Below are positions 16,546-35,419 of a DNA stretch of 64,000 nt, piece after piece. Position numbers and translations under genes: made by a program. Numbering within the stretch: the stretch's first letter is position 1; every line of letters begins with the position of its first letter. The notes under the pieces were generated by a model, which saw only the letters and a list, made by a program, of their open reading frames with translations, did no database searches and was not told the DNA's origin. Location: positions 1 to 64,000 of the forward strand of contig NZ_POTW01000001.1 of NCBI RefSeq assembly GCF_003236295.1, given 5' to 3'. Origin of the DNA: Jiangella anatolica (GTDB lineage: Bacteria > Actinomycetota > Actinomycetes > Jiangellales > Jiangellaceae).

Positions 16546-16546
16546 G

Positions 16547-18315: not shown

Positions 18316-18320
18316 CGGGG

Positions 18321-19580: not shown

Positions 19581-19626
19581 CAGGTGCTCCTTGTGGAGTC
19601 GTAGCTCTGATTGAACGTTAAAGGTC

Positions 19627-19705
19627 TGCAACGATCGTAGGAAGTTCTGCAACGCTGTCAAATCACGGTTGCGCATCGCTACATATCCGTTGCGTATAGT
19701 GCAAT
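19627..19705. promoter_or_regulatory. Divergent promoter region with phased IclR-type sites
   Basis: On the minus strand GTTGCA half-sites lie at 19648-19653 and 19627-19632, 21 bp apart, around a TTGACA (19661-19656), 16-bp spacer, TACGAT (19639-19634) promoter for the binding protein operon. On the plus strand GTTGCGCAT (19668-19676) and the palindrome GTTGCG-TATAG-TGCAAT (19689-19705) lie 21 bp apart; TATAGT (19695-19700), inside the palindrome, may be the iclR -10. This fits autoregulation and control of the divergent operon. Confidence 0.6.
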
Positions 19706-19717
19706 CTGGAGGTGGTC

Positions 19718-20491
19718 GTGGCACAGACGATCCAACGGGCGATCGAGCTCATCCGGAGGTCGGCGGAGCACCCGCTGAGCCTCACCGAGGCATCGGAGGT
19801 GCTGGGCGTCCACAAGTCGACGGCGCTGCGGATGCTCCAGACCCTCGAGGCGGCCCGGTTCGTCCGGAAGACCGGCGTCGGCACGTACGTGTTCGGGAGC
19901 GGCCTCATCGAGCTGTCCGAGCTCGCTCTCGGTTCGATGGACCTGCGCCAGTTCGCCTCGGCGCACCTGCGCCGGCTCCAGCGGGAGACCGGCCACACGG
20001 TGCACCTCGCCCAGCTGACCGGCGACGAGATCATCTACATCGACAAGGTCGACAGCCCCGCCTTCGACGCCGTGAAGCTGCCGTCGCGGGTCGGCCGCGC
20101 CGTGTCGATCTATGCCAGCGCCGTCGGCAAGGTGATCCTGGCCCATCTGCCGCGCGAGGAGCGCGACCGCCTGCTGTCCCACGTCACGTTCGAGCGCTAC
20201 ACCGACACCACCTTCGCCGATCGTGCGTCGCTGGAGCTCGAGCTCATCGCGGTGCGCGAGCGCGGCTGGGCGACCGACAACGGCGAGCACGACGCCTACG
20301 TGATGTGCGTCGCCGCGCCGATCAAGGACACCCGGGGCCGGGTCGTCGCCGCTGTCTCGATCACGGCGATCGAGGTCATCGCGACGCTGCCGCAGCTCGA
20401 GGCGCGGCTGCCGCTGCTCCTCGACACCGCGGCGGCCATCTCGGCCGAGCTCGGCCACACCTCCGCCGTGACGGAGGCATCGGCGGGCTGA
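19718..20491 (+). CDS. IclR family transcriptional regulator
   Basis: The 257-residue protein has a winged helix-turn-helix (LSLTEASEVLGVHKSTALRM, about residues 22-41) and the IclR effector domain (HTVHLAQLTGDEIIYIDKV; SIYASAVGKVILAHL; CVAAPIKDTRGRVVAAVSIT). The GTG at 19718 is chosen because GGAGG (19708-19712) overlaps an earlier in-frame GTG at 19712. It is divergent from the sugar-acid operon, which it probably controls in response to a sugar acid or keto-acid. Matching operators occur in front of both secreted esterases of this window. Confidence 0.92.
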   Translation: MAQTIQRAIELIRRSAEHPLSLTEASEVLGVHKSTALRMLQTLEAARFVRKTGVGTYVFGSGLIELSELALGSMDLRQFASAHLRRLQRETGHTVHLAQLTGDEIIYIDKVDSPAFDAVKLPSRVGRAVSIYASAVGKVILAHLPREERDRLLSHVTFERYTDTTFADRASLELELIAVRERGWATDNGEHDAYVMCVAAPIKDTRGRVVAAVSITAIEVIATLPQLEARLPLLLDTAAAISAELGHTSAVTEASAG

Positions 20492-20561: not shown

Positions 20562-22127
20562 TCAGCCGGCGTCGGCCGGTGCACTCGACGACCCGTCGAA
20601 CAGGTCGTCGCCCTGGTAGCGGGCGACCACCGGCTCGTCGAGCAATGCGCCCTCGACCGGCCGGTGGAACCGCGCGACACCGTCGCGGACCGGCGCGGAG
20701 CCGAGGTACTGCTCGCCCGCGTAGAACTCGACCCTGCCCGAGGGTGCGGCGACGCTGGTCGTCACGGGATCGACCGTGGCGACCGCGGTCAGGAGCACGT
20801 GCTCCGATCGCCCGACCGGCTCGGCGGTGGCCTCGAGCCCGGTCGTGGTGGTGCGGAAGGCGATCTCGCGCAGGTAGTGGTTCAGCAGCGGCCGCCAGAC
20901 GTGCCAGGTGTGCACGCCCGGGACGTTGTACTCGTCGAGCTCGACGCCGGCCGCCCGCAGTGCGGCGGCGTTGCGCTGGGAGTTCTCGGCGATGTTGCCC
21001 AGGCGGTCCTGCAGCCCGGTACCGATCATGATCCCGCCGGCGACGTTCTTCATGCGGTCGATCTGCGCCTGGCTCGCCTGCGGGCCGCCGGCGCTCCACG
21101 CCGCGTGGTAGCCGAACAGCTCCGTGTGGTCGTACAGCAGGGTGTAGGCGCGGCTCCCGCCCGCCGAGAACCCGGCGAAGGCGCGGTCCTCGGCCCGGCT
21201 GGAGACGTTGTAGTTCTGCTCCACGAACGGGAAGACGTTGTTCCTCAGCTCGTTGACGTAGCCCAGGTTGCCGCCGGGCAGGCCGTTGAAGTCGGTCGAC
21301 ACGATGACCATCGGCTGCACGGCGCCGTCCTGGATGGCGTTCTCCAGGATGCGGTGGGCCACGCCCTGCATCGTCCAGGCGGTCGAGTGGTCGCCGCCGC
21401 CGTGGCTCAGGTACAGCGTCGGGTACGGCGTCGACCGGTCCGGGTCGTAGCCGTGCGGCAGGTACACGACCATGTCGTGGACGCCGGCCGGGTTGGTGGA
21501 CAGCGGCGACGGGTAGCGCCGCGACTCCAGCGTGCCGGCCTTGTTCGGCCGCTGCGGGGCCTGGTAGTCGGTGTCGTAGGTCGGGAACTTCTTGCTCTCC
21601 GGCACGTAGACCGTGCTGCGCACGGCTCCCGGCGCGCCGGGGTACTGGGGCTGGAGCTGCCACGGGTTCGCCGGGTCGTCGTGCAGCGGGCAGCCGGTGG
21701 CCAGCACGTTGGTGCAGTCGTGGGTGAACGCGTAGCGGAAGGTGCCGGCGGGCAGCGGCACCGTGATCGACCAGACGCCGTCGTCGCCGCGCTCCATCGG
21801 CAGGATCTGCCACGGCGTGGCGGCGATGTCGCCCGGCAGCCACTGCGACGGCGGCCGGCCGTCGCCGCAGTCCTGGCAGGTGACGCTCTCGGGACGCGAG
21901 TAGAACCAGTCGCCGTAGATGTGGACCGACTCCACGTCGTCCGGCGCCTCGTACCTGAACGTGACGGAGTGCCCGGTCGGTGGCTGGTCGGTGCGGACGA
22001 CCTCGGGACCGAGCGGCTGCGGCGGCGCGGCCGTCGCCGGCGGCGCCATCGCGGCGGCCGCCACGGCTGCGGCGACGGTGAGGCCGGTCAGCAGCGAGCG
22101 CATCCGGTCGGGGCGTAGCAGGTGCAT
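20562..22127 (-). CDS. Secreted CE1-like esterase with C-terminal Ig-like domain
   Basis: The ATG at 22127 follows GGAGGGAGA and opens a signal peptide (cleavage near ATAAPP); the 521-residue product is exported. It has an N-terminal CBM48/E-set-like module (about 50-170), an esterase D-type alpha/beta hydrolase (YLPHGYDP; nucleophile Ser321 in AGFSAGGSR; His in PGVHTWHVW), and a C-terminal bacterial Ig-like repeat (about 425-521). It resembles one half of the tandem esterase at 1647-3839. It probably deacylates plant polysaccharides. An IclR-type site lies about 75 bp upstream of its start. Confidence 0.87.
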   Translation of the reverse strand: MHLLRPDRMRSLLTGLTVAAAVAAAAMAPPATAAPPQPLGPEVVRTDQPPTGHSVTFRYEAPDDVESVHIYGDWFYSRPESVTCQDCGDGRPPSQWLPGDIAATPWQILPMERGDDGVWSITVPLPAGTFRYAFTHDCTNVLATGCPLHDDPANPWQLQPQYPGAPGAVRSTVYVPESKKFPTYDTDYQAPQRPNKAGTLESRRYPSPLSTNPAGVHDMVVYLPHGYDPDRSTPYPTLYLSHGGGDHSTAWTMQGVAHRILENAIQDGAVQPMVIVSTDFNGLPGGNLGYVNELRNNVFPFVEQNYNVSSRAEDRAFAGFSAGGSRAYTLLYDHTELFGYHAAWSAGGPQASQAQIDRMKNVAGGIMIGTGLQDRLGNIAENSQRNAAALRAAGVELDEYNVPGVHTWHVWRPLLNHYLREIAFRTTTTGLEATAEPVGRSEHVLLTAVATVDPVTTSVAAPSGRVEFYAGEQYLGSAPVRDGVARFHRPVEGALLDEPVVARYQGDDLFDGSSSAPADAG

Positions 22128-22251: not shown

Positions 22252-23430
22252 TCAGCGCTCCCAGAACGCCTGCCGTGCGACCGCCCCTTTGACCGTCCGG
22301 CGGTAGTGCCCGGGCGACATGCCGGTGTGCTTCTTGAAGACCACGCTCATGTACTCCGAGTGGCTGAAGTTCAGCCGCTCCGCGATCTGCTGCATCGTCC
22401 AGTCCGTCGAGGACAGCAGCTCGGCGACGTGGGCGATGCGGACCCGGATGATCTCGCTGTGGACCGACCGGCCCAGGGTCGCGACGAACCGGAGGTCGAG
22501 CGCGCGGCGCGAGAGGCCGACGTGGCGGAGGACGGCGGTGACGGCGAGGTTCTGGTCCGACCGGACCCGGATGAACCGCAGCGCCTCGGACACGAGCGGG
22601 TCGTCGACGGCGAGGATGTCCGACGACTGGCGGGCGACGACGCGGACCGGCTCGATCAGGCGCAGGCCCGGCTCCAGCGTGTGGCCCTGCAGCATCAGGT
22701 CGAGCAGATGCGCGGCCAGATACCCCGTCGCGGTGGTGTTGGGCTCGATGCTCGACAGCGGCGGCGTGGTGAGGTTGCCGATCAGCTCGTCGTTGTCGAC
22801 GCCGATGACGGCGACCGAGTCGGGGACCGTGAGACCGGCGATCTTGCACGCCTCGAGCACCTCCTGACCTGCGATGTCGTAGCAGGCGAGGACGCCGACG
22901 GGCTTCGGCAGCCCGGTCAGCCAGGCCGCCAGCAGCTCGCGGTCGGCGGCGCGCATGCTCGACGGCTTCATCCGGAACTCGTGCGGCGTCGCGCCGCGCT
23001 GGCGGACGTGGCCGGCGAACCACTCGCCGCGCTTGACCGACCAGGCGAACCGCTCGTCGCCGCAGAAGGCGAAGTGCCGCAGGCCGCGCTCGGCGAAGTG
23101 GCCGACCGCCCAGCGGGCGATCGTGCCGTCGTCGGTCTCGACGCCGGGCAGCTCCGGCACCAGCCGGGCGGCGCTGAGGTCCACCGTCGGCAGGCCGAGC
23201 CGGCGGATGAACCGCGCGGTCTCCTCGTTCTCGATCCGGGCCAGGACGCCGTCGCCCTGCCAGCCCTCGAGCCAGGAGAAGTCGGTCTCGTGCCGGCTGT
23301 GTTCGGCCAGGTAGATCGACCAGTGCGGGTGCTCCTCGACGTACTTCTTCACGCCGACGAGCAGACCGCGGGCGTAGGCGTTGGACGTCTCGACGAGCAG
23401 CGCGACGTGTCGCGTCCCGGTGACAACCAT
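22252..23430 (-). CDS. XylR-like AraC family regulator with sugar-binding sensor domain
   Basis: The 392-residue protein joins a LacI-type periplasmic-binding sensor (VALLVETSNAYARGLLVGVK; VIGVDNDELIGNLTTPPLSS) to a C-terminal AraC double helix-turn-helix (RRALDLRF and LNFSHSEYMSVVFKKHTGMS), the architecture of E. coli XylR. It is divergent from the oxidoreductase/Liv-type importer cluster (85-bp gap), its likely target. A minus-strand TAGATT (23442-23437) lies six bases before the ATG with no ribosome site, so its mRNA may be leaderless. The ligand is probably a pentose or related sugar. Confidence 0.92.
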   Translation of the reverse strand: MVVTGTRHVALLVETSNAYARGLLVGVKKYVEEHPHWSIYLAEHSRHETDFSWLEGWQGDGVLARIENEETARFIRRLGLPTVDLSAARLVPELPGVETDDGTIARWAVGHFAERGLRHFAFCGDERFAWSVKRGEWFAGHVRQRGATPHEFRMKPSSMRAADRELLAAWLTGLPKPVGVLACYDIAGQEVLEACKIAGLTVPDSVAVIGVDNDELIGNLTTPPLSSIEPNTTATGYLAAHLLDLMLQGHTLEPGLRLIEPVRVVARQSSDILAVDDPLVSEALRFIRVRSDQNLAVTAVLRHVGLSRRALDLRFVATLGRSVHSEIIRVRIAHVAELLSSTDWTMQQIAERLNFSHSEYMSVVFKKHTGMSPGHYRRTVKGAVARQAFWER

Positions 23431-23515
23431 GTAAAAAATCTAAGCTCTGCTGCTGGATTGCGCATGGTTTGCCCGGTTGTGTCCTCCGTAGCCTTCACGA
23501 CACAGGAGGTCAACG

Positions 23516-24619
23516 ATGACGCAGAAAGTACGGGTCGCCATCGCCGGACTCGGTTTCGGGTCGGAGTTCGTGCCGATTTATCAGGCCCATCCTGATGCCG
23601 AGCTCGTCGCCGTGTGCCAGCGAACCGAAACCGCGCTCAATGCGACCGCCGACCATTTCGGCGTGCCCGGCCGCTATACGGATTTCGACGCGATGCTGGC
23701 CGATCCGGACATCGACGCGGTGCACATCAACACCCCCATTCCCGACCACGCGCGCCAGACGATCGCCGCGCTGCGGGCGGGGAAGCACGTCGCCTGCACG
23801 GTCCCGATGGCGACGACGCTCGAGGAGTGCCGCGCGATCGTCGAGGCCGTGCGGGAGTCGGGCAAGAACTACATGATGATGGAGACGGTCGTCTACTCGC
23901 GCGAGTTCCTGCACGTCAAGGACCTCGCCGACAACGGGACGCTGGGGCGGATCCAGTTCCTGCGCGGTGCACACCACCAGGAGATGGCCGGCTGGCCCGG
24001 TTACTGGGAGGGCCTCCCGCCCATGCACTACGCCACGCACGCGGTGAGCCCGGTCCTGTCGCTGGCCGGCGCGCTGGCCGAGAGCGTCGTGTGTCTCGGC
24101 TCGGGCCGGATCTCTCCCGAGCTCGCCGAGAAGTACGGTTCCCCGTTCGCCGTGGAGAGCGCGCTCATCACGATGCGCGATTCTCCGGTCGGCGCCGAGA
24201 TCGCCCGGTCGCTATTCAATACCGCCCGCGAGTACGTCGAGAGTTTCACCGTGTTCGGTGAGCTGGCGACGTTCGAATGGGAGCAGACACAGGGTTCCGG
24301 TCACGTGCTGCACGTGGGTGAGATTCCGAAGACCGTCGAGATACCTGACTTCGCGCACCGGCTGCCGGCGCAGATCGCGCCGTTCACGACGCACGGGGTC
24401 TACGACGCCGAGAACGAGCACCTCTCGTTCGTCCAGGGCGGCGGGCACGGCGGGTCCCACCCGCACCTGGCCCACGAGTTCGTCCGCAGCGTTCTCGAGG
24501 GCCGGGCGCCGGCGATCGACGAGGTCACGGCCGCCAACTGGACGTCGGTGGGCATCTGCGCCCACGAGTCGGCGATGAACGGCGGCGCCCGGGTCCGGAT
24601 CCCCGACTACACGAGCTGA
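23516..24619 (+). CDS. Gfo/Idh/MocA family oxidoreductase
   Basis: The 367-residue protein begins with a Rossmann NAD(P)-binding motif (VAIAGLGFGSEF), contains the family's KHVACTVPMATTLEE stretch (usual EKP replaced by TVP) and a C-terminal alpha/beta substrate domain with MHYATHAVSP. Such enzymes oxidise or reduce sugars, often at C3, or inositols. It heads an operon with a Liv-type importer and an epimerase-like enzyme. The E-K-P lysine commonly used in this family is missing at that position, which is worth noting for mechanism. Confidence 0.9.
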   Translation: MTQKVRVAIAGLGFGSEFVPIYQAHPDAELVAVCQRTETALNATADHFGVPGRYTDFDAMLADPDIDAVHINTPIPDHARQTIAALRAGKHVACTVPMATTLEECRAIVEAVRESGKNYMMMETVVYSREFLHVKDLADNGTLGRIQFLRGAHHQEMAGWPGYWEGLPPMHYATHAVSPVLSLAGALAESVVCLGSGRISPELAEKYGSPFAVESALITMRDSPVGAEIARSLFNTAREYVESFTVFGELATFEWEQTQGSGHVLHVGEIPKTVEIPDFAHRLPAQIAPFTTHGVYDAENEHLSFVQGGGHGGSHPHLAHEFVRSVLEGRAPAIDEVTAANWTSVGICAHESAMNGGARVRIPDYTS

Positions 24620-24663
24620 GACCCGGGTCGTCCGACGACACGCACCGACATGTGGAGGTACCG

Positions 24664-25791
24664 ATGACGCCTGCCTCGAACGGACTCGACCAGGTGCGAC
24701 GCGAGGACGAGCGCACGACGAGCACCGAGGTGCGCAGCCGGTCCGCCGCGTCCGTGCGGAGCCGGCTGACGGAGCTTCGCCGGCCCTCGGTCTGGGTCGC
24801 CGCCGTCGTCGCCGTGGCCGTGGCCGCCTGGGTGCTGGTGCTCGCCGACGGCACCCCGGCCGGCGCGGCGGCGGACGATCCGGGCAAGTTCCTGGTCACG
24901 GTCCTGGACGCGGTGACCTTCGCCGGCCTGCTGTTCGTCGCCGCGTCGGGCTTCACCCTGATCTTCGGGCTCATGCGCACGGTGAACATGGCGCACGGCT
25001 CGCTGTTCCTGCTGGCCGCCTACGTCGCCATCCGCGTGCAGGAGGCCATGGTGGGCCGCAGCCGCAACATCGACCCCGCCGACGTCGGGCTGCTCGACTG
25101 GCTGGTGCCGATGCTGGCCGGCGCGGGGGTCGCGGCCGTCCTCGGGCTGGCGATCCAGCAGGTGTTCCTGCAGTGGAACGAGGGCCAGGAGATGCGGCAG
25201 ACGCTACTGACGCTGGCGATCACCGTCGTGCTGGCCGACCAGATGCTGCGCGAGTTCGGCGGGCTGGCGCAGCGGATGGTCTGGCCCGGCGCCGTCACGC
25301 ACTTCTTCACCATCGGCGGCGAGCGGTACGCGGCCACCCGGCTGTTCATGCTCGGCATCGCGGTGCTGGTCGGCGTGCTGCTGTGGCTCTGGCTGAACCG
25401 CACCAGCGTCGGCATGGTCATCCGGGCCGGTGTGGACGACCGGCAGATGGTGCGCGGGCTGGGCATCAACATCAAGCGGGTCTTCGCCCTCACGTTCCTC
25501 GTGGGCTCGTTCCTCGCCGGGGTGGGCGGCGTGCTCGGCGCGTCGTTCGCCGGCGCCGCGCCCGGCACCGACGGCAGCTGGCTGCTGAACTCGCTCGTCG
25601 TCGTGATCATCGGCGGCCTGGGCTCGCTCAAGGGCGCCGCGGCCGGCTCGCTGCTGTACGGCACGGTCGTCGCCTTCTCACCGGCGTACCTGCCGAGCCA
25701 GTACTCCTACTACGCGATCATCATGACGTTCGGCCTGCTGGCCCTCGTGCTGGCCGTGCGTCCCTACGGGCTGTTCGGGAGGCCGGCATGA
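24664..25791 (+). CDS. Liv-type (HAAT) ABC transporter permease, LivH-like
   Basis: The 375-residue membrane protein starts at ATG 24664 after GGAGG (24654-24658); an in-frame GTG at 24652 overlaps that site and is rejected. After a long charged N-tail and one extra hydrophobic segment (about 45-65), the LivH core follows (FAGLLFVAASGFTLIFGLM; VIRAGVDDRQMVRGLGINI; VVIIGGLGSLKGAAAGSLLYG). It overlaps the LivM-like gene by four bases. The family classically imports branched-chain amino acids; the sugar-enzyme neighbours make a different ligand likely. Confidence 0.92.
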   Translation: MTPASNGLDQVRREDERTTSTEVRSRSAASVRSRLTELRRPSVWVAAVVAVAVAAWVLVLADGTPAGAAADDPGKFLVTVLDAVTFAGLLFVAASGFTLIFGLMRTVNMAHGSLFLLAAYVAIRVQEAMVGRSRNIDPADVGLLDWLVPMLAGAGVAAVLGLAIQQVFLQWNEGQEMRQTLLTLAITVVLADQMLREFGGLAQRMVWPGAVTHFFTIGGERYAATRLFMLGIAVLVGVLLWLWLNRTSVGMVIRAGVDDRQMVRGLGINIKRVFALTFLVGSFLAGVGGVLGASFAGAAPGTDGSWLLNSLVVVIIGGLGSLKGAAAGSLLYGTVVAFSPAYLPSQYSYYAIIMTFGLLALVLAVRPYGLFGRPA

Positions 25792-26798
25792 ACCTGCGCG
25801 CACGCCTGACCGGCGAACCGCTCGCCCTGGCCGGACTGGTCCTGTTCCTGATCCTGCTGCCCAGCCTGGCCACGGCGTTCTTCGTCAACTTCGTCATGAC
25901 CCAGACGCTGATCCTGGGGCTGGCCGCCGCGACCATCGTGTTCCTGTCCAGGTACGGCGGCATGACGTCGCTGGCGCAGCTGCTGATGTTCGGGATCGCC
26001 GGCTTCATGTTCGGCAACGCCGCGCTCGACGGCGGCGCCCGCGGCCTCAACCTCGGCTGGCACCCGTGGGCCGCCGTCGGGTTCGCGATCGTCGTCACGA
26101 CGCTGGCCGCGGTCGTGCTCGGCGCGATCGCGAGCCGGACGACGGGCATCTACTTCCTGATGCTCACGCTGGTGTACGGCGTCATCGGCTACTTCGTCTT
26201 CGCCCAGATCGTCGAGATCTCCGGGCCCGGCGGCATCACCAGCATCCAGCGGCCGGACCTGCTGGGCCCGCCGGTCCGGCTCTACTACGCCGGCCTGCTG
26301 CTGTCGGTGCTGGCCTACGTGGGCTTCCGCGCGCTGCGCCGGACCGCCTTCGGGCTCGCGCTGCAAGGGGTGCGCGACGACCCCGTCCGGATGGCGTCGC
26401 TGGGCTTCAACGTACCGCTGCACCGCACGCTGGCCTTCGTGCTGGCCGGGTTCGTGGCGGGGCTGGCGGGCCTGCTGAACGTCTGGTGGAACGGCCAGAT
26501 CGACCCGGCCTCGATCTCGATCGGGCCCACGTTGATCCTGCTGATCATCGCGGTCATCGGCGGCATCTCGTCGCTGGAGGGCGCCTGGCTCGGCGCGTTC
26601 GTCTACGTCCTCGTCTTCACCTACCTGCGCGACCTCCCGCTCGTCGACCGCATCGGCATCACGGAGGCGCGCTTCAACACCGTCATCGGCGTCATCGTCC
26701 TGGCGATCATGGTCCTCTCGCCCGAGGGCCTGACCGGGATCGCGCGCCGGCTACCCGTACGCACGATCCGCAAGGAACTCGGAGGGACACGAGCATGA
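25788..26798 (+). CDS. Liv-type ABC transporter permease, LivM-like
   Basis: The 336-residue permease starts at the ATGA overlap. It shows the LivM pattern: LAQLLMFGIAGFMFG, RTTGIYFLMLTLVYGVIGY, the ATPase-contact loop ALQGVRDDPVRMASLGFNV and IAVIGGISSLEGAWLGA. It also overlaps the binding protein gene by four bases. It pairs with the LivH-like permease as the importer channel. Confidence 0.93.
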   Translation: MNLRARLTGEPLALAGLVLFLILLPSLATAFFVNFVMTQTLILGLAAATIVFLSRYGGMTSLAQLLMFGIAGFMFGNAALDGGARGLNLGWHPWAAVGFAIVVTTLAAVVLGAIASRTTGIYFLMLTLVYGVIGYFVFAQIVEISGPGGITSIQRPDLLGPPVRLYYAGLLLSVLAYVGFRALRRTAFGLALQGVRDDPVRMASLGFNVPLHRTLAFVLAGFVAGLAGLLNVWWNGQIDPASISIGPTLILLIIAVIGGISSLEGAWLGAFVYVLVFTYLRDLPLVDRIGITEARFNTVIGVIVLAIMVLSPEGLTGIARRLPVRTIRKELGGTRA

Positions 26799-28273
26799 GC
26801 AGACAGAGGAGACGGGCATCGCTGGCGCTGTCCGTGACGGCCGGCCTGGCGCTGCTGGCCGCCGGCTGTGGTGGCGGGGACGACGACTCGACGGGGCTGC
26901 CCGCCGACCAGGAGTCCGCCGGCGGCGGGGACGGCTCGCCGGCCGGCGGCGACGAGGGGATCCGCCTGGGCATTCTCGGCCAGTGCGAGGGACCGTTCGG
27001 CGGCTTCCACGAGGACGTCGTCGCCGGCACCACACTGGCGCTGGCGCAGTTCGCCGGCGCGACGCCCAACTCGTCGACCAGCGCGCTGGAGGGGTTCAGC
27101 GGCGCCGAGGTCGCGGGCACGCCGATCGAGCTGGTCGGCATCGGCTGCGGCGACGACACCGCCGACCGCATCGTGCAGGAGGTGCGCCGCCTGGTCGAGC
27201 AGCTCGGCGCGAACGTCATCATCGGCCCGCTCTCCGGCGACGAGGGCATCGCCATCGCTGAGTACGCGAAGGCCAACCCCGAGATCACGGTGTTCGCCGG
27301 CATCTCCGGCTCGCAGGAGCAGACGCTGCAGGTCCAGGCGCCGAACTACTTCCGCTTCTACGGCGACGGCGCCATCTGGAGCGCCGGCCTCGGCGACCTG
27401 CTGCACAACCAGGAGGGCTGGGACACCGTCGCGGTCATCGCCGACGACTACAGCTTCGGCCACACGTCGGCCGCGGGATTCATCGCCGACTTCTGTGCCG
27501 TCGGCGGCGACGTCGTCAGCCGCGTCTTCCCGCCGCTGGGCACCACCGACTACTCGTCCTACATCGCGCAGCTGCCGAACCCGGACGAGGTCGACGGCTA
27601 CTTCTGGGCGGTCGGGGGCACCGGCACGCAGGCCGCGCTCGAAGCGTTCGTCAACGGCAAGGGCGACCTCACCGGCGACCAGCACGCGGGCAACCTGTTC
27701 TTCAACCCGAACCTGGCGCAGGCGCTGGGCACCGGCATCGCCGGGGCCTACGTGGGCGGCTTCGCGACGCTCCCGGGCGACGTTCAGACACCGGAGATCG
27801 AGGAGTACCTGGCCGCCGCCGACGCGACCTGGGAGACCATCCCCGGCTCGCTGAGCGGCAACGAGCCGGCGCCGCCGTCGGTGGCCGCCGCGTTCGGCTT
27901 CTTCTACGGCTACTACACGGCCGGCGTCGCGCTGGTGGAGTCGCTGGAGGCGGTGGGCGGCGACATCTCCGACCTCGACGCCTACCACGCGGCGATCTCC
28001 GATCTCACGCTCGACCTGCCCTACGGCGAGATCAGCCTGGACGAGAACCGCAGCGGCATCGTCGACGTCGGCCTGTCGCGCCTGGTGCTCGACGACGCCG
28101 GCGATGTCGTCCAGGAGACGGTGGCCATCGTGCCCGGCGTCGACCAGACCTTCGGCGGCACGTTCAGCCCCGACACCCCCTCGCCCGGCCGCGACTTCCC
28201 GGCCTGCGAGGAGCGGGATCTGCCGTGGGTGGGCAACGCCATCCCGGTCGTCGACGGCGTGCCGCAGGGCTAG
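26795..28273 (+). CDS. Liv-type extracellular substrate-binding lipoprotein
   Basis: The 492-residue protein starts at ATG 26795 after GGAGGG. The lipobox is LAAGC (Cys25) with a Gly/Asp/Ser-rich linker. The Peripla_BP_6 fold follows (IRLGILGQCEGPFGGF; VIIGPLSGDEGIAIAEYA; VAVIADDYSFGHTSAAGFIA). It is longer than typical LivJ (about 370), with an extended C-terminus. Gene order (permeases, binding protein, ATPases, epimerase) suggests a carbohydrate-derived ligand rather than an amino acid; this is inference. Confidence 0.92.
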   Translation: MSRQRRRASLALSVTAGLALLAAGCGGGDDDSTGLPADQESAGGGDGSPAGGDEGIRLGILGQCEGPFGGFHEDVVAGTTLALAQFAGATPNSSTSALEGFSGAEVAGTPIELVGIGCGDDTADRIVQEVRRLVEQLGANVIIGPLSGDEGIAIAEYAKANPEITVFAGISGSQEQTLQVQAPNYFRFYGDGAIWSAGLGDLLHNQEGWDTVAVIADDYSFGHTSAAGFIADFCAVGGDVVSRVFPPLGTTDYSSYIAQLPNPDEVDGYFWAVGGTGTQAALEAFVNGKGDLTGDQHAGNLFFNPNLAQALGTGIAGAYVGGFATLPGDVQTPEIEEYLAAADATWETIPGSLSGNEPAPPSVAAAFGFFYGYYTAGVALVESLEAVGGDISDLDAYHAAISDLTLDLPYGEISLDENRSGIVDVGLSRLVLDDAGDVVQETVAIVPGVDQTFGGTFSPDTPSPGRDFPACEERDLPWVGNAIPVVDGVPQG

Positions 28274-28282
28274 GCGAGCGTC

Positions 28283-29029
28283 ATGGCGTCCGTCGTCGAG
28301 ATCCGCGAGGTCACGGTGGCGTTCGGCGGGCTGCGCGCCCTGCGCGGTGTCGATCTCGACATCGCGCAGGGCGAGCGGCTGGCCGTCATCGGGCCCAACG
28401 GAGCCGGCAAGACCACCCTCTTCAACGTCATCGCGGGCGACATCGCGCCGACCACCGGCACGGTGGTCATCAGGGGGCAGGACTGCACCCGCCGGCCGTC
28501 GCGGCACCGTCCCCGCCTCGGCCTGGCCCGGACCTACCAGAAGGCCCGCGCCTTCGCCGGCCTGACCGTGCGCGAGAACATCTACCTCGCGCTCGCGGGA
28601 CACCGGGGCCGGCACCGTGCGCTCTGGCGGACGCCGGCCGACCGCGCGATGGGCGACGAGGCCGCGGACGTCGCGGACCGGGTCTGGCTGTCCGGTCAGC
28701 TCGACGAGCTCGCCGGCGAGCTCGCGCACGGGCAGCGGCGCCAGCTCGAGCTGGCGATGGCGATCGCGACCCGGCCGGACGTCATGCTGCTCGACGAGCC
28801 GGCGTCGGGCCTGTCCCGCGGCGAACGGGAGCGTCTGGTCGAGCTGCTCGAGTCGTTCGACGACCGGCTGACGCTGCTGCTCATCGAGCACGACATGGAC
28901 GTCGCGTTCCGGATCGCGCAGCGCGTCGTCGTGATGGCCGACGGCGAGCAGGTCATGGCCGGTACGCCGGACGAGGTCCGGGCCGACCCGCACGTCCATC
29001 GCATCTATCTCGGCACGGAGGCGGCATGA
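28283..29029 (+). CDS. Liv-type ABC transporter ATP-binding protein, LivG-like
   Basis: The 248-residue ATPase has Walker A GPNGAGKTTL, a signature-region LAHGQRRQLELA, Walker B VMLLDEPASGLS and the H-loop LIEHDMD. The signature reads AHGQ instead of LSGGQ, as often in LivG proteins. It starts nine bases after the binding protein stop and overlaps the LivF-like gene by four bases. It energises the importer with LivF from the cytoplasmic face. Confidence 0.94.
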   Translation: MASVVEIREVTVAFGGLRALRGVDLDIAQGERLAVIGPNGAGKTTLFNVIAGDIAPTTGTVVIRGQDCTRRPSRHRPRLGLARTYQKARAFAGLTVRENIYLALAGHRGRHRALWRTPADRAMGDEAADVADRVWLSGQLDELAGELAHGQRRQLELAMAIATRPDVMLLDEPASGLSRGERERLVELLESFDDRLTLLLIEHDMDVAFRIAQRVVVMADGEQVMAGTPDEVRADPHVHRIYLGTEAA

Positions 29030-29760
29030 CACGCGACGACGCGCTGCTCGAGGTCCGCGACCTGCGCTCCGGCTACGGAGCGTCGCTGGTCCTCGACGGC
29101 CTGAGCTTCAGCATGGGGGTCGAGGCGGTCGCCGTCGTTGGGCGCAACGGGATGGGCAAGACCACGCTCTGCGACACGCTGGTCGGGTTCCTTCCCGCGG
29201 CGGGCGGCGAGGTCCGGCTGGCCGGTCGCCGGCTCGACGGCATGGCGCCGGAGGCGGTCGCCCGCGCCGGCCTCGCCTACGTGCCGCAGGGCCGCCGGCT
29301 GTTCCCGTCGCTCACCGTCGACGAGCATCTGGCCATGCTGGCCCGGCGCGCCCGGGGCAGGCGGTGGACGACCGACTCGGTCTACGAGCTGTTCCCGCGG
29401 CTGGCCCAGCGCCGGCACCACGGGGGAGCGGCGCTGTCCGGCGGCGAGCAGCAGATGCTGGCCGTCGGCCGGGCACTGATGCTGAACGCGCCGCTGGTCG
29501 TGATGGACGAACCGTCCGAGGGGCTGGCCCCGACGATCGTCGACGTGCTGGTCGACGCCGTCCACCACCTCGTGGCCGAGGGCGTCGCCGTCCTCGTCGT
29601 CGAACAGAACCTGCGGGCGGCGGTGCGCATGGCGGACCGGCAGCTCGTCATGGTCTCCGGCCGCATCGAGGCCGAGTTCGCCGGCGACGAGTTACTGGAC
29701 CGGCCCGATCTGCAGCACCGTTTCCTCGGCGTTGGCGCTACGGCAGGAGAACCCGCATGA
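29026..29760 (+). CDS. Liv-type ABC transporter ATP-binding protein, LivF-like
   Basis: The 244-residue ATPase has Walker A GRNGMGKTTL, LivF-typical YVPQGRRLFPSLTV, signature LSGGEQQMLA, Walker B LVVMDEPSEGLAP and VEQN. It starts in the ATGA overlap with LivG and ends in an ATGA overlap with the epimerase-like gene. This completes the importer, so unlike the CUT1 systems of the window it does not depend on a shared ATPase. Confidence 0.94.
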   Translation: MTRDDALLEVRDLRSGYGASLVLDGLSFSMGVEAVAVVGRNGMGKTTLCDTLVGFLPAAGGEVRLAGRRLDGMAPEAVARAGLAYVPQGRRLFPSLTVDEHLAMLARRARGRRWTTDSVYELFPRLAQRRHHGGAALSGGEQQMLAVGRALMLNAPLVVMDEPSEGLAPTIVDVLVDAVHHLVAEGVAVLVVEQNLRAAVRMADRQLVMVSGRIEAEFAGDELLDRPDLQHRFLGVGATAGEPA

Positions 29761-30641
29761 CGACCACGAGGGCGCTGGGCGCCAACACCTGGATCTGGAC
29801 CTCGCCGTTGACCGACCGGCGGCTGGCCGAGCTGGCGCCGCGCATCCGCGGCTGGGGCTTCGACGTCATCGAGCTACCGGTCGAGAACGTCGGCGACTGG
29901 GACCCCCGCCGCGCGGCGACCCTGCTCGACGGGCTCGGGCTCTCGGCCACCATCGTCGTCGCGATGGCGCCGGGGCGGGAGCTGGTGGGCACCGACCAGG
30001 AGACGATCCAGACGACGCGCGACTTCCTGCGGCACGTGGTCGACGTCGCGGCGGCCGTCTCGTCGCCGGTGATCGCCGGCCCGATCTACACCTCGGTCGG
30101 GCGGACCTGGCGCCTCGACGACGCGGAGCGGCGCGGCTGCTACCGGCAGCTGCGCGACAGCCTCGGGCCGGTGGTCGGGCACGCGATGGACGCCGGCGTG
30201 ACCGTCGCCGTCGAGCCGCTCAACCGGTTCGAGACCAGCCTGCTCAACACGGTCGACCAGGCGCTGGAGGCGCTGGACGGCCTGCCCACCGCGGGCTGCG
30301 GCCTGGGCCTGGACACGTTCCACATGAACATCGAGGAGCGCAGCATCACCGAGGCCATCCGCCGGGCGGCCGGCCGGATCGCGCACGTGCAGGTGTGCGC
30401 GAACGACCGCGGCGCGCCGGGCGCGGACCACCTGAACTGGCCCGGGATCGTCGCCGCCCTGGACGCGGCCGGCTACCGGGGCCCGCTCGTGATCGAGTCG
30501 TTCACCGGCGACAACGCGACGATCGCCACGGCGGCGTCGATCTGGCGGCCGTTGGCGAAGACCCAGGACGCCATCGCCGTCGACGGGCTCGCGTTCCTCT
30601 CCGGCGTCGTGCGGGGAGGAGGTGTGTCCTCACCGATCTGA
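29757..30641 (+). CDS. Sugar isomerase/epimerase, D-tagatose/psicose 3-epimerase-like TIM barrel
   Basis: The 294-residue enzyme has the xylose isomerase-like barrel of the ketose 3-epimerase group: GFDVIELPVEN near the N-terminus, metal-site Glu in VAVEPLNRFETSLLNT, Asp and His in GLGLDTFHMNIEE, and Glu in PLVIESF. It would move a keto group or epimerise C3 of a ketose or 3-keto sugar in the cytoplasm. Translational coupling to the Liv-type ATPase shows it acts on the imported substrate. Related E. coli YcjR works beside a Gfo/Idh dehydrogenase on 3-keto sugars. Confidence 0.88.
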   Translation: MTTTRALGANTWIWTSPLTDRRLAELAPRIRGWGFDVIELPVENVGDWDPRRAATLLDGLGLSATIVVAMAPGRELVGTDQETIQTTRDFLRHVVDVAAAVSSPVIAGPIYTSVGRTWRLDDAERRGCYRQLRDSLGPVVGHAMDAGVTVAVEPLNRFETSLLNTVDQALEALDGLPTAGCGLGLDTFHMNIEERSITEAIRRAAGRIAHVQVCANDRGAPGADHLNWPGIVAALDAAGYRGPLVIESFTGDNATIATAASIWRPLAKTQDAIAVDGLAFLSGVVRGGGVSSPI

Positions 30642-30688
30642 GCATGTCGGGCTGTTCACATCCGCAACGAAGCGACGGTGAGAGGTCT

Positions 30689-33600
30689 ATGCAACGACTT
30701 TATCGTTACATCACATTCACGCTGGTGGCGGCCCTGCTGGCCGTGGTGTTCCCCGGCGCCGCCAGCAGCTTCGCCCATCCGCCGGAGGAGCCCTACGAGG
30801 TCCTGTTCTTCCACAAGACCACCGGCTTCCGGCACGACTCGATCCCGGCGGCGCTCGCCGCCGTCCAGGCCCTCGGCCAGGAGCACGGCTTCACGGTGAC
30901 GGAGACGCAGGACGCGTCGGTCTTCACCGACGCCGGCCTCGGCGAGTACGCCGCCGTCGTGTTCTACACCGACGGCGAGAACACGCTCACGACGCCGCAG
31001 CGCACCGCGTTCGAGCGGTACCTGCAGCGCGGCGGCGGCTTCGTCGGTCTGCACTCCACCTCCAACACCGACAAGTCGAACTGGCCGTGGTGGAAGGAGC
31101 TGTTCGGCGGCGGGTTCTTCGTCAACCACCCGCCCATCCAGTCCGCCACGGTGAAGGTCGAGGATCCACAGCACCCGGCGACGGCGCAGTTCGGCGCGTC
31201 GTTCCAGTGGCCGAGCGACGAGTTCTACAACCTCGCCGCGAACCCGCGCGCGGCGGGCGTCAAGGTCCTGTTGACCGTCGACGAGTCCACCTACACCGGC
31301 GGGCAGATGGGCGCGGACCACCCGGTGTCCTGGTGCTCGCTCTACGACGGCGGCCGGACGTTCTACACCGCGCTCGGGCACTCGGCCAGCCACTACGCCG
31401 ACCCGGGGTTCCGCCAGCACATCGGCTGGGCCATCGAGTGGGCGTCCGGCACGACCGAGGCCGACTGCGGCGAGCCGCGCGAGGGCATTCCCACCGCGGC
31501 CGCGTTCGAGAAGGTCGCGCTCGACGACAACACGGCCAACCCGATGAAGCTGGACATCGCTCCCGACGGCCGGGTCTTCTACACCGAGCTGGCTGGCGCG
31601 GTGAAGGTCTACCACCCGGACACCCAGCAGATCACGACCGCCGGTCAGATCCCGGTGTACCGGGGCCAGGAGAACGGCCTGATCGGCATCGCGCTGGACC
31701 CGGCGTTCGAGGAGAACAACTTCCTCTACCTCTTCCACAGCGACCCGGCGTCGAGGACCGTCGACGGCATCGCCGGCGGCGTGCAGCACGTGTCGCGGTT
31801 CACGCTCGACCCGGTGAGCGAGCAGATCGACCTGGCCTCCGAGGTCGTCCTGCTGGAGATCCCGCACCAGCGGGTGGAGTGCTGCCACAGCGGCGGGCAC
31901 ATGGACTTCGACGCCGAGGGCAACCTCTACATCTCCACCGGCGACGACACCAACCCGTTCGCGTCGGGCGGCTTCGGCCCGTTCGACTACCGGCCCGGCC
32001 GCCAGCCGTGGGACGCGGCCCGGTCGTCGGGCAACGCCGCCGACCTGCGCGGCAAGATCCTGCGGATCAACCCGATCGAGACGGCCACCAGCACCGACGC
32101 TCCCGGCGTCGGCAGCACCTACGACGTCCCGGACGACAACCTGTTCACCAGCGGTGAGCACGACGCCCTGTTCCCCGGCGGCGTCTACGACCCGGCGCTG
32201 GGCCGGCCGGAGATCTACGTCATGGGCCTGCGCAACCCGTTCACCCTGGACATCGACCAGGCGACCGGCGTGCTGACGTTCGGCCTCGTCGGCCCCGACG
32301 CCAACCCGGCCGGCGGCGTCGACCCGAACCGCGGCCCGCGCGGCTACGACTACTGGGCCCAGGTGCACGAGGCCAGCAACTACGGCTGGCCGTTCTGCAT
32401 CGTCAACAACCAGCCGTACAACCACTTCGACTTCGCCACGAACGTGTCCGGTGAGCCGTACGACTGCGCCGGCGGCCCGACGAACGACTCGCCGAACAAC
32501 ACCGGCATCGACACGCTGCCGCCGGTGGAGCACCTGCCCACCGTCCACTACCCCTACTGCAACAGCCAGGGCGGCTACCCGGCGCCGCCGCCGCACGCGG
32601 GGGTCCCGTGCGGCCCGGTGCCCGGCGGGTCGGCCTATGGGACCGGCCGCGCCGCCTACGCCGGCGACACCTACCACTTCGACCCGGAGGTCACGGCGGA
32701 CGGCCGGTTCCCGGCGTTCTTCGACGGCAAGCCGTTCGTCATGGAGTGGGAGCGCGACTTCATCGCGACGATGACCCTCGACGCGAACGGGAACTACGTC
32801 AACGGGTCGCTGAGCGAGCAGTTCTTCGGCTTCCGGTTCGACGAGAGCCTGCGGCTGCGCAAGCCGCACGACATGGAGTTCGGCCCCGACGGCAACATGT
32901 ACCTGATCGAGTGGGGCGACGAGTTCAACTTCGGCGGCGGCGGGGTCAACCCCGACTCCGGCCTGTACCGGATCAGCTACGTCAAGGAGGGCCGCACGCC
33001 GACGGTCCACACGTCGGCGACGCCGGACAACGGCCAGCCTCCGGTGGAGGTGACGTTCTCCTCCGAGGGCACGTTCGACGCCGACGGCGACGAGATCACC
33101 TTCGCCTGGACGTTCGGCGACGGCGGCACGAGCACCGAGCCGAACCCGACGCACACCTACACCGAGGCCGGCGTCTACACCGCGCAACTCGTGGTCACCG
33201 ACGCCACCGGCCGCTCGGCCAGCTCGAACGCGACGATCACCGTCGGCAACACCGAGCCGGAGGTCACCATCGAGCTGCCGGCCAACGGCCAGGTCTTCGA
33301 GTGGGGCGACGAGGTGCCCTTCCGGGTGACCGTCACCGACGCCGAGGACGGGTCCACGGCCGATGGCGGCATCGACTGCGCGGACGTGACCGTGCAGCAG
33401 GGCGTCTACCACGACACCGGCGGCGCCGTGCACGTCCACCAGGGGGCGTCGCAGAACGGGTGCGAGGGCACCATCGTGACCGACTCCGAGAGCGGACACG
33501 AGGGCCAGAACGTCACCGTGATCGTCACCGCCAGCTACACCGACGAGGGCGATCACCCCGACGCGCAGCCGCTGACCGGCGGCAGCAGCCACCTGCTGCG

Positions 33601-35419
33601 GCCGGCCCGGACGGAGGCCGAGCACTTCAGCGAGTCCTCCGGCATCGTCACCGGCCCCGGCAACGACGCGCAGGGCGGCGGCGAGACGGCGCGGGGCGCG
33701 GACGGCGACTGGGCCGCCTACGACCCGGTGAGCCTGGACGACCTCGAGTCCCTGGACCTGCGGGTCTCGGCGCTCGCCGACACGACCGTCGAGGTCCGCC
33801 GGGACGCGCCGGACGGCCCGCTGCTGGGGACCGCGGACATCCCGGCCACGACCCAGATCGGCCGGGCGGCCGGCCAGAACGGGTTCGGCAACGCCGTCCA
33901 GTTCAACTCCGGAACGGCGAGTCAGTACGCCACCCTGCCCACCGGCGTGGTCAGCGACCTGACCGGCGACTTCACCATCGCCACCTGGATCAACCGGCCC
34001 GCCACCGGCCAGGAGTGGTCGCGGATCTTCGACTTCGGCTCCGGGACCGGTGTCAACATGTTCCTGACGCCGAACGCCGGCGGGGCGCCGGGGCTGCGCT
34101 ACGCGATCAAGCCGCAGGGCGCCTCCGAACAGCAGATCACCTACAACCAGGAGGTTCCCACCGGCTGGCACCACGTGGCGGTGACGCTGTCCGGCACCAC
34201 CGGCACGCTGTGGCTCGACGGCGTCGCGGTCGCGACGAACGCGACCATGACGTTCAACCCGTCCGAGCTCGGCGAGACGACGCAGAACTGGCTGATCCGG
34301 TCCCAGTACGCCTCCGACCCGTACCTGAACGCGACGCTGGACGAGTTCCATGTCTTCGACAGCGCTCTCGGGCAGGCACAGCTCCAGGCGCTCATGGCCG
34401 GGCCGGCTGGTGACGCCGGTGGCAACGTCGTCGCCTACGACTTCGACGAGACCGGTGGCGCCGCCATCGAGGACTCGTCCGGTCAGGGCAACGACGCGAC
34501 CATCGGGGTGAACGCCTCGGTCGCGAACTGGACCGACGTCAGCGTCGACCTCGCCCCGTCGCAGGGCAGCACCCAGCTGTACCTGGTGTTCCCGGGTGCT
34601 GAGGCGAACGTGAACTGGCTGCACCTCAACACGGGTCCGGGTGTCGAGATCCCGGTCGTCTCGGCCGCCGTGGCCCCGGCCTCGCCCGACGGCGACAACG
34701 GCTGGTACGTGACGGCGCCGGCCGTGACGCTGTCGGCCGACGACCCCGGCGCCGCCATCGAGTACCGCGTCGGCGGCGGGGCGTGGACGGCCTACAGCGG
34801 TCCGGTCACGCTGGACGAGGACGGCACGCACACGGTCGAGTACCGGGCGACCAACGCGGCCGGCACGTCCGAGCCCGGCTCCGTCGAGGTGGCGGTCGAC
34901 CTGACCGCGCCGGAGACCGTGGCCACGGTGGACGGCGATCTCGACCAGGACGTCTACCTGGGACCGGCGACGCTGACGCTCGCCGCCTCGGACGCGACGT
35001 CGGATGTGGCCGAGACGCACTACCGGCTGGCCGGCGACGCGGAGCACACGGTGTACTCCGGCCCGGTGACGTTGGATCCGGCGGCGGTGTACGAGGTCGA
35101 GTACCGCGCCGTCGACGCGGCGGGGAACGTGGGCGAGTGGCAGCCGCTCACGGTCGTCGTCGCCGACACGTCGGTGATCGTCGGCGGCGTCGACTCCGGG
35201 GTGGCCAACCGGACGGTGTCGAGCGGCACGACGATCAACGACCTCATCCTGGACGAGCAGCCGTGGCCCAACCGCGCGGCGTTCCTCCGGCACGTCACCG
35301 AGGTCACCCGGCAGCTGCAGGCCGACGGCGTCATCACCGGCCGCGAGGCGAGCAGCATCCAGCGGGCCGCCGCACAGAGCGACGTCGGGAGGAGCGGCGG
35401 CGGCTTCGTGCTCGGCTGA
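30689..35419 (+). CDS. Giant secreted ThuA / sugar dehydrogenase (GSDH) / PKD / CBM6 / LamG protein
   Basis: The 1576-residue product starts at ATG 30689 after GTGAGAGG, with a signal peptide (residues 1-29). Order: ThuA-like domain (about 37-262, LFFHKTTGFRHDS), PQQ-type glucose/sorbosone dehydrogenase beta-propeller (273-771, KLDIAPDGRVFY, GLRNPFTLDI), PKD domain (772-855, AWTFGDGGTSTEPNPTHTY), Ig-like region, CBM6 (976-1056 and 1278-1318) split by a LamG/laminin-like domain (1057-1276), two OmpL47/chitobiase-C-like repeats, and a conserved helical tail. It should bind polysaccharide and oxidise or transform sugars outside the cell. It follows the epimerase gene by 47 bases, so it may belong to the same transcript. 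Confidence 0.88.
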   Translation: MQRLYRYITFTLVAALLAVVFPGAASSFAHPPEEPYEVLFFHKTTGFRHDSIPAALAAVQALGQEHGFTVTETQDASVFTDAGLGEYAAVVFYTDGENTLTTPQRTAFERYLQRGGGFVGLHSTSNTDKSNWPWWKELFGGGFFVNHPPIQSATVKVEDPQHPATAQFGASFQWPSDEFYNLAANPRAAGVKVLLTVDESTYTGGQMGADHPVSWCSLYDGGRTFYTALGHSASHYADPGFRQHIGWAIEWASGTTEADCGEPREGIPTAAAFEKVALDDNTANPMKLDIAPDGRVFYTELAGAVKVYHPDTQQITTAGQIPVYRGQENGLIGIALDPAFEENNFLYLFHSDPASRTVDGIAGGVQHVSRFTLDPVSEQIDLASEVVLLEIPHQRVECCHSGGHMDFDAEGNLYISTGDDTNPFASGGFGPFDYRPGRQPWDAARSSGNAADLRGKILRINPIETATSTDAPGVGSTYDVPDDNLFTSGEHDALFPGGVYDPALGRPEIYVMGLRNPFTLDIDQATGVLTFGLVGPDANPAGGVDPNRGPRGYDYWAQVHEASNYGWPFCIVNNQPYNHFDFATNVSGEPYDCAGGPTNDSPNNTGIDTLPPVEHLPTVHYPYCNSQGGYPAPPPHAGVPCGPVPGGSAYGTGRAAYAGDTYHFDPEVTADGRFPAFFDGKPFVMEWERDFIATMTLDANGNYVNGSLSEQFFGFRFDESLRLRKPHDMEFGPDGNMYLIEWGDEFNFGGGGVNPDSGLYRISYVKEGRTPTVHTSATPDNGQPPVEVTFSSEGTFDADGDEITFAWTFGDGGTSTEPNPTHTYTEAGVYTAQLVVTDATGRSASSNATITVGNTEPEVTIELPANGQVFEWGDEVPFRVTVTDAEDGSTADGGIDCADVTVQQGVYHDTGGAVHVHQGASQNGCEGTIVTDSESGHEGQNVTVIVTASYTDEGDHPDAQPLTGGSSHLLRPARTEAEHFSESSGIVTGPGNDAQGGGETARGADGDWAAYDPVSLDDLESLDLRVSALADTTVEVRRDAPDGPLLGTADIPATTQIGRAAGQNGFGNAVQFNSGTASQYATLPTGVVSDLTGDFTIATWINRPATGQEWSRIFDFGSGTGVNMFLTPNAGGAPGLRYAIKPQGASEQQITYNQEVPTGWHHVAVTLSGTTGTLWLDGVAVATNATMTFNPSELGETTQNWLIRSQYASDPYLNATLDEFHVFDSALGQAQLQALMAGPAGDAGGNVVAYDFDETGGAAIEDSSGQGNDATIGVNASVANWTDVSVDLAPSQGSTQLYLVFPGAEANVNWLHLNTGPGVEIPVVSAAVAPASPDGDNGWYVTAPAVTLSADDPGAAIEYRVGGGAWTAYSGPVTLDEDGTHTVEYRATNAAGTSEPGSVEVAVDLTAPETVATVDGDLDQDVYLGPATLTLAASDATSDVAETHYRLAGDAEHTVYSGPVTLDPAAVYEVEYRAVDAAGNVGEWQPLTVVVADTSVIVGGVDSGVANRTVSSGTTINDLILDEQPWPNRAAFLRHVTEVTRQLQADGVITGREASSIQRAAAQSDVGRSGGGFVLG

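Follow-up and report, generated by a model that had tools for sequence, protein, structure and literature searches.

The first 64,000 nucleotides of contig NZ_POTW01000001.1 of Jiangella anatolica (genome size 7.0 Mb), referred to here as the window, contain a unit at positions 22252-35419. In this unit a xylR-like gene on the minus strand is followed on the plus strand by gfo (encoding GfoA), a five-gene ABC importer cassette of the HAAT family (livH-livM-SBP-livG-livF; SBP, substrate-binding protein), an epimerase-like gene and a ThuA-GSDH gene. With roughly even confidence, we propose that this operon encodes the uptake and opening of a sugar-containing molecule, in the likeliest case a short oligosaccharide or a glycoside set free from a glycan of plants or microbes. 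The proposal builds on the gene order and its conservation, on the exchange of importers while regulator and GfoA remain constant, on a single operator-like site and on the GH109-type residues and fold of GfoA. More tentatively, at somewhat less than even confidence, we suggest that a branch of the HAAT (Liv/Urt) family became a dedicated glycoside importer more than once. It would feed a distinct family of GH109-like, NAD-dependent oxidoreductive glycosidases lacking the PF21252 domain. Importer, sensor, glycosidase and a single operator would together make up a modular unit whose importer can be of either type, HAAT or CUT1. The link of the HAAT importer to sugars is drawn from comparative genomics only.

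The gene order was compared across loci found with the SBP. The search covered 60 kin genomes, including that of J. anatolica itself (16 with a match at 1e-20), 393 genomes of the class (17 with a match at 1e-40) and a collection of named species, which yielded 50 loci. The counts of 13 and 50 given here refer to the latter set, to which Jiangella endophytica contributes two loci (L048, L051); loci outside it partly duplicate named ones (L040/L056, L041/L080, G002/L047). Genes in related loci were called by codon-model scripts, with faulty calls at some loci (L070, L074, L092, L145, L146), and several of the 50 loci are short (e.g., L075 with 5.3 kb). The higher group, where stated for these loci, is an Actinomycetota lineage, and four are given as ‘bacterium’ alone. 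The order xylR|gfo-livHMKGF-epimerase is kept in 13 of the 50 loci, belonging to Jiangella (six), Streptomyces (four), Actinophytocola, Nonomuraea and Phytoactinopolyspora (one each). The original prediction hinged on a gene order conserved beyond close relatives, and this held, with seven of the 13 loci lying outside Jiangella. In all 13, xylR is divergent from gfo and adjoins it, and the ThuA-GSDH gene comes next after the epimerase gene in each of the 11 that extend that far. In the loci outside Jiangella, identity to the window is 72-91% across the eight genes that run from xylR to the epimerase gene, which suggests that the unit was moved by gene transfer as a whole.

The importer beside GfoA is not constant. 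Searches with GfoA gave a match at 1e-45 in 17 of 396 genomes of the phylum and a match in 15 of 393 genomes of the class. Genome G359 has two XylR-GfoA loci (for L167 and L166, respectively, XylR identity 71 and 68%, GfoA identity 82 and 66%), both with CUT1 importers and both without HAAT. The two GfoA genes (L166 and L167 on contig C3) are about 12 kb apart. At L167, xylR adjoins gfo, and after gfo come a single PF01261 gene and a CUT1 importer, of which a binding protein and a BPD_transp_1 permease were recognized by Pfam. At L166, seven called genes separate xylR from gfo and the CUT1 binding protein is recognized by Pfam; the remaining CUT1 permeases of both loci were assigned by eye. 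Two genomes of family f52 (G567 and G671) encode GfoA proteins of 49 and 51% identity in a stretch of about 14 kb that also has a CUT1 importer (Pfam identified the binding protein of G567; the other parts were assigned by eye) and several PF01261 genes, in the order CUT1, PF01261, canonical Gfo, DTE-like epimerase, two ABC ATPases and GfoA. In G461, which belongs to another class, genes for GfoA (72%), the epimerase (35%) and ThuA-GSDH (57%) flank a HAAT importer whose Liv proteins are placed in another HAAT lineage by the tree (support 1.000). At locus L130, GfoA and a cupin gene precede livH, livM, livG and livF, whose products group with those of L046 (1.000, long branches); no SBP was called there within the 7 kb examined. 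Judged by these contexts, GfoA thus accompanies importers of three HAAT lineages as well as CUT1 importers. A more distant GfoA (46%) is found in G005 with UPF0261 and PEP-hydrolase genes and a CUT1-type importer (by eye).

The xylR-gfo gap contains an operator-like motif, GTAAANANTCTA-N14-ATNNCGCATGG, with 19 specified bases. It was found in all 16 xylR-gfo intergenic regions, without mismatch in 12 and with one mismatch in four, and is present at L167 of G359 ahead of the CUT1 operon. When up to three mismatches were allowed, eight of the 10 genomes searched contained one copy each, always beside gfo. G177 and G461 had no copy, and the reversed pattern used as a control was absent from the genomes searched. 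With one copy per genome beside gfo, XylR thus seems to serve a single promoter. The finding of a like site ahead of both HAAT and CUT1 operons, in different groups, is, in our view, the strongest argument that the HAAT ligand may be of the carbohydrate type. The suggested tie between the HAAT importer and sugar-type enzymes is supported by genomic context, namely the conserved order and the CUT1 and HAAT lineages around GfoA.

The original prediction regarded the Gfo/Idh protein as an oxidoreductase, and as a canonical dehydrogenase this assignment does not stand. We compared 23 chosen GfoA proteins (seven from loci with the HAAT of the window and 16 from further fetched GfoA loci) with 17 canonical Gfo proteins (GfoC) and 11 GH109 proteins. 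The latter were obtained with PF21252, which matched 12 of 148 genomes; of the 14 loci taken, 11 yielded a usable reading frame. The catalytic Lys of the EKP motif, the mark of canonical Gfo/Idh/MocA members, is present in 17/17 GfoC and in 0/23 GfoA, which have Val (22) or Ile (one) at this position. Instead, Glu123 and His311-Gly-Gly occur in all 23 GfoA proteins and Tyr127 and Tyr172 in 22 of them; all four elements are found in 11/11 GH109 proteins and none in the 17 GfoC. GfoA thus has both the Gfo/Idh fold and the GGHGG-type His loop of GH109, as the GxGHGG loop with His311 is present in 23/23. His175 is likewise present in 23/23, and the residue four positions before it is His (nine), Asn (nine), Trp (three), Tyr (one) or Leu (one) and never Asp. 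By its title, a 2020 study by Teze et al. reportedly places the GH109 acid-base in the GGHGG loop. For an Akkermansia GH109 enzyme, His404, Tyr226 and His259 are named in an excerpt of PMC10755693, and the catalytic residues of scyllo-inositol dehydrogenase are given as Lys106, Asp191 and His195 in an excerpt of PMC5969746. A plain inositol or levoglucosan dehydrogenase was also considered for GfoA and was ruled out by the missing EKP Lys and the GHGG loop.

Structure and phylogeny point the same way. The model of GfoA (pLDDT 87) has GH109 6t2b as its best structural match (Z 37.7, 2.4 Å over 339 residues, 21% identity), followed by GH109 2ixa (Z 37.2) and then levoglucosan dehydrogenase (Z 35.8). 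A profile of the 23 GfoA proteins searched against PDB sequences ranked DgpA first and 2ixa second, the latter in two stretches (independent E-values of 1.9e-17 and 0.0074). In a tree of 15 of the 23 GfoA, seven of the 11 GH109, eight of the 17 GfoC and 12 other Gfo-type proteins, GfoA, GH109 and three GfoA-like rows fall on one side (97/88). Residues and model together suggest that GfoA is a GH109-like, NAD-dependent and transiently 3-keto glycosidase acting on an imported glycoside. Its likely reaction would therefore be NAD-dependent glycoside cleavage in the cell and not plain 3-keto sugar reduction. GfoA may belong in GH177 or GH179, which exist as NAD-dependent families (PMC11701701, in excerpt).

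In the proposed mechanism, the XylR-like sensor would detect a sugar and turn on the single promoter. The ThuA-GSDH protein, which is probably secreted and has carbohydrate-binding modules, would act on a glycan or its products outside the cell, and the HAAT-family ABC importer would carry a carbohydrate-type ligand in place of an amino acid. In the cytoplasm, GfoA with bound NAD+ would catalyze transient C3 oxidation, aglycone elimination, water addition and re-reduction, as its residues and fold suggest. The ketose-3-epimerase-like enzyme would presumably convert the sugar set free.

Several results weigh against this reading. Such high identity between distant genera is a sign of gene transfer, and the 13 order-keeping loci should therefore not be counted as independent of one another. 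In 12 of the 16 fetched GfoA loci, no HAAT and no complete CUT1 importer were recognized (many are short contigs, and labels were given by similarity and by eye). ThuA-GSDH was found neither in the two G359 loci nor in the f52 loci tested, and the motif is absent from L166, the second locus of G359. PF21252, the C-terminal domain of GH109, was unmatched in 23/23 GfoA at E-values up to 1, and we therefore name GfoA GH109-like and not GH109. The structural margin of GH109 (Z 37.2-37.7) over levoglucosan dehydrogenase (35.8) is small, and the tree carries a long-branch warning for exactly the join of GfoA and GH109. His175, which is shared with GH109, does not discriminate, because GfoC proteins have a D-x3-H His of their own that is shifted in the alignment.

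Further points, for and against, come from the importer clade and the SBP. Neighboring genes were tallied by tblastn at 1e-15 with reference proteins taken from the same loci, the sugar references being GfoA, canonical Gfo (GfoC), PF01261, the xylose-isomerase-like XI443, ThuA-GSDH and XylB. In favor of the sugar reading, 23/23 loci with an SBP identity of at least 74% have at least one sugar gene. Sugar genes are found in seven of 16 loci at 64-73% identity and in none of 11 under 60%, several of these loci being short, and genes for a Mo-hydroxylase and/or an SMP-30 lactonase in seven of the 16 and eight of the 11, respectively. By these tallies the association with sugar genes is firm for importers close to that of the window but does not hold throughout the clade. 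The ligands probably differ within the clade, since sugar genes are rarer, and Mo-hydroxylase or SMP-30 genes present, in its divergent members. The SBP itself has no NCBIfam match at E-values up to 0.001. Its AlphaFold model (pLDDT 86) overlaps solved HAAT SBPs over most of its length and is closest to 4zpj (Z 40.6; the title of 4zpj gives no ligand) and then to 4-hydroxybenzoate and vanillate binding proteins, with 18-24% identity across these and 4zpj. Of the solved SBPs listed with a named ligand, those closest in fold hold aromatic acids; the other ligands named are amides, urea and amino, keto and aromatic acids, and no title among the matches listed (some are incomplete) names a sugar. 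The loop sequences of the SBP do not favor one ligand type over another.

The original prediction placed the first step outside the cell: ThuA-GSDH would oxidize a glycan-derived sugar to a 3-keto sugar, HAAT would import it, and Gfo and the epimerase would reduce or epimerize it inside. We consider this scheme unlikely. ThuA-GSDH does accompany GfoA also in G461, where the HAAT is of another lineage, and one His and one Arg-Asn of pyrroloquinoline quinone (PQQ) glucose dehydrogenases align in the GSDH domain, at low scores; we take the His to be catalytic and the Arg-Asn to contact PQQ. The epimerase-like protein has the motif residues of the D-tagatose/psicose 3-epimerases (E-P-L-N-R-F-E, D-x-F-H, H...R and the Glu of the last strand), with presumed metal and substrate roles. 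Its Glu, Asp, His and Arg positions are invariant in AVEPLNRFE, LDTFHMNIEE, HVQVCANDRG and VIESF among the 14-16 relatives covering them, and its score of 129 bits is below the NCBIfam cut-off for D-psicose 3-epimerase (300 bits). However, GfoA has neither the EKP Lys nor an Asp four residues ahead of His175 and is GH109-like, and ThuA-GSDH was not found at the CUT1-type loci tested. Moreover, known GSDH enzymes oxidize C1 and not C3, and the GSDH matches also include Hedgehog-interacting protein, which to our knowledge is not an oxidoreductase.

Just as unlikely, in our view, is that HAAT carries an aromatic acid or a phenolic glycoside (e.g., derived from plant phenolics) from which the sugar enzymes strip the sugar. 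The SBPs bound to 4-hydroxybenzoate and vanillate are among the best matches both in sequence and in fold, but the SBP of the window is only 18-21% identical to aromatic-acid-binding SBPs. DgpA, the best PDB match of GfoA by sequence, is linked to C-glycoside 3-oxidation (PMC11239390, in excerpt), yet no gene for aromatic-ring degradation was recognized in the operon of the window. A putative esterase is encoded next door (20562-22127), but in only four of the 12 Jiangellaceae loci looked at.

That HAAT is an ordinary importer of amino acids or amides with unrelated neighbors appears quite improbable. All four Liv membrane and ATPase proteins have urea-transporter families as their best NCBIfam matches, each below the cut-off, and no sugar-bound HAAT SBP is named among the matches listed. 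Against this stand the 4-base overlaps, the conserved order and a whole unit kept in distant genera, as well as the exchange with CUT1 beside the same regulator and operator-like site and the three HAAT lineages beside GfoA. Finally, it is very improbable that the ligand of HAAT is an amino-sugar derivative or an amino acid bearing a sugar (e.g., on serine, threonine or hydroxyproline) that is split inside by GfoA: this would fit both the GH109-like enzyme and the known use of such importers for amino acids, and a GH109 enzyme frees N-acetylgalactosamine (GalNAc) from GalNAc-serine (PMC11992087, in excerpt), but no amino-acid catabolic gene was recognized in the conserved unit and CUT1 importers replace HAAT in some relatives.

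Uptake and intracellular opening of a glycoside, the reading we prefer, would combine parts of known kinds; new are their combination, the importer exchange and the GH109-like branch. The importer has the same five-gene cassette as LivHMKGF and UrtABCDE, and its SBP model overlaps HAAT SBPs, but it occurs here with a sugar-type regulator and sugar-type enzymes, is replaced by CUT1 in some relatives and has an SBP unmatched by NCBIfam. GfoA agrees with GH109 (2ixa, 6t2b) in the fold, the lack of the EKP Lys, Glu-x3-Tyr, Tyr-x-x-His and the GHGG loop, and part of the GfoA members share a PDF-like C-terminus with GH109. In contrast, GfoA is shorter (367 residues against 426-436 in the solved chains), is unmatched by PF21252 and is linked to an importer. 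The levoglucosan cluster lgdA-lgdB1-lgdC likewise has a Gfo/Idh fold, a PF01261 protein and an ABC importer in one cluster (PMC10066097, in excerpt). Compared with the Gfo/Idh-PF01261 3-keto pathways (lgd, the C-glycoside DgpA/CGE and Agrobacterium OGE), however, GfoA lacks the EKP Lys, the importer is HAAT and the PF01261 member of the window is most like ketose 3-epimerases. In 3-keto pathways, putative sugar phosphate isomerases act as eliminase and hydratase, according to an excerpt of PMC10628242. The GH188 sulfoquinovosidases (SqgA) have a Gfo-like fold too (8qc series, Z ~34) and use NAD-dependent oxidoreductive hydrolysis, again as excerpted from PMC10755693, but share 16% identity with GfoA. 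SqgA has Lys107 at the C3-OH in the excerpted text, whereas the residue at the EKP position of GfoA is not Lys. The titles and abstract openings among the matches listed from the open-licence literature did not describe any sugar-importing HAAT system.

HAAT importers tend to be annotated as branched-chain amino acid transporters. If this branch does import sugars or glycosides, many such labels would be wrong and actinobacterial carbohydrate uptake would be under-counted. GfoA and its relatives would be candidates for a new glycosidase group that depends on NAD and passes through a transient 3-keto stage, and the importer exchange offers a clean comparison of one regulator and enzyme with two unrelated importers.

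The genes and the motif of the unit are collected in Table 1. The gene content and positions named in the original prediction were recovered in full, each label being backed by Pfam. Two BPD_transp_2 permeases, two ATPases (ABC_tran scores of 110 and 84 bits in Pfam) and a Peripla_BP_6 SBP in one cassette place the importer in the HAAT family, and an XylR N-terminal domain together with Peripla_BP_3 and an AraC helix-turn-helix domain makes the regulator XylR-type. Genes overlap by 4 bases at livH/livM, livM/SBP, livG/livF and livF/epimerase, with gaps of 9 bases between SBP and livG, 44 between gfo and livH and 47 between the epimerase and ThuA-GSDH genes.

Table 1. Features of the unit in the J. 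anatolica window (positions as in the window; bit scores from Pfam unless stated otherwise).
Feature	Position	Strand	Evidence
XylR-like AraC-family regulator with sugar-type sensor domain	22252..23430	-	Peripla_BP_3 130 bits, HTH_18 66 bits, PBP1_XylR 36 bits
Operator-like motif GTAAANANTCTA-N14-ATNNCGCATGG in the xylR-gfo gap	23431..23467	+	Conserved across xylR-gfo intergenic regions
GfoA, Gfo/Idh fold, GH109-like; candidate NAD-dependent oxidoreductive glycosidase	23516..24619	+	GFO_IDH_MocA 90 bits
LivH-type permease	24664..25791	+	BPD_transp_2 106 bits; best NCBIfam UrtB 135.8 bits, below cut-off (250.3)
LivM-type permease	25788..26798	+	BPD_transp_2 85 bits; best NCBIfam UrtC 78.5 bits, below cut-off (296.2)
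HAAT-type SBP, lipoprotein by eye	26795..28273	+	Peripla_BP_6 114 bits
LivG-type ATPase	28283..29029	+	ABC_tran and BCA_ABC_TP_C
LivF-type ATPase	29026..29760	+	ABC_tran; best NCBIfam UrtE, below cut-off
Ketose-3-epimerase-like TIM barrel (PF01261)	29757..30641	+	AP_endonuc_2 120 bits; best PDB match D-tagatose 3-epimerase, E 9.8e-33
ThuA-GSDH-PKD-CBM6-LamG protein (1576 residues), signal-like start by eye (secreted)	30689..35419	+	ThuA 227 bits, GSDH 85 bits, PKD, CBM_6, Laminin_G_3

Upstream of the unit, the window contains enolase-superfamily (MLE), FAH-type and CUT1-like importer genes (by eye) and an IclR regulator gene at 14165-20491, which look like a separate sugar-acid cluster. The putative esterase mentioned above (PF00756 and Big_3_5) adjoins xylR. 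The esterase and iclR genes occur in just four of the 12 Jiangellaceae loci with the HAAT and gfo of the window (the sequence of one locus stops 0.65 kb beyond xylR), and we therefore left the esterase and the genes at 14165-20491 outside the unit.

Variants of the unit occur in other genera. In Glycomyces salinus (L059), the four partner genes are also found next to the importer, but on the opposite strand. In Phytoactinopolyspora endophytica (L056, L141), an extra gene set is present between livF and the epimerase and ThuA genes, spanning L056:13156-21545 and L141:10493-16501. It includes inositol-phosphate-synthase-like and PF01261 genes (by Pfam) and UbiA-like and other genes (by eye), and we take it to be ebo-like; two gene families of this set are also found beside the HAAT of Glycomyces salinus.

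Five of 10 neighbor proteins, which were chosen and do not represent all neighbors, are glycoside hydrolases, with families 95 and 2 (L060), 106 (L050) and 3 (L141) and an arabinofuranosidase-type C-terminal domain (L053). In Glycomyces harbinensis (L060:16802-21379), the family 95 and family 2 hydrolase genes follow the HAAT and ThuA-GSDH genes. As a point for the preferred reading, two other HAAT cassettes of the J. anatolica genome (L143, L144) have none of the reference genes within 10 kb each, nor are any near the Azospirillum HAAT cassette L134, and the sole reference gene at a fourth related HAAT locus (L046) encodes a Mo-hydroxylase subunit. The Acidimicrobiia loci among L062-L096, which are divergent members of the clade, have varying sets near the importer, comprising Mo-hydroxylase, SMP-30, isochorismatase, SDR and a PAS histidine kinase with a LuxR-type response regulator.

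In the plasmid collection, the SBP gave seven distant matches (32-36% identity) and GfoA gave no match at 1e-40. A plasmid of Thermomicrobium roseum (L133) has UPF0261 and PEP-hydrolase genes directly after HAAT, a Yoonia plasmid has them about 8 kb beyond HAAT, and an Azospirillum plasmid has none. Among HAAT loci of the window clade, such genes occur in one genome each of Jiangellales, Euzebyaceae and Nitriliruptoraceae, in three of Nocardioidaceae, in two of Acidimicrobiia and in one assigned to Actinomycetota only. UPF0261 (Tm-1-like) and/or PEP-hydrolase-like genes were seen near HAAT or CUT1-like importers at L133, L043-L045, L132 and L169, and it is possible that they share a function in sugar or sugar-acid breakdown.

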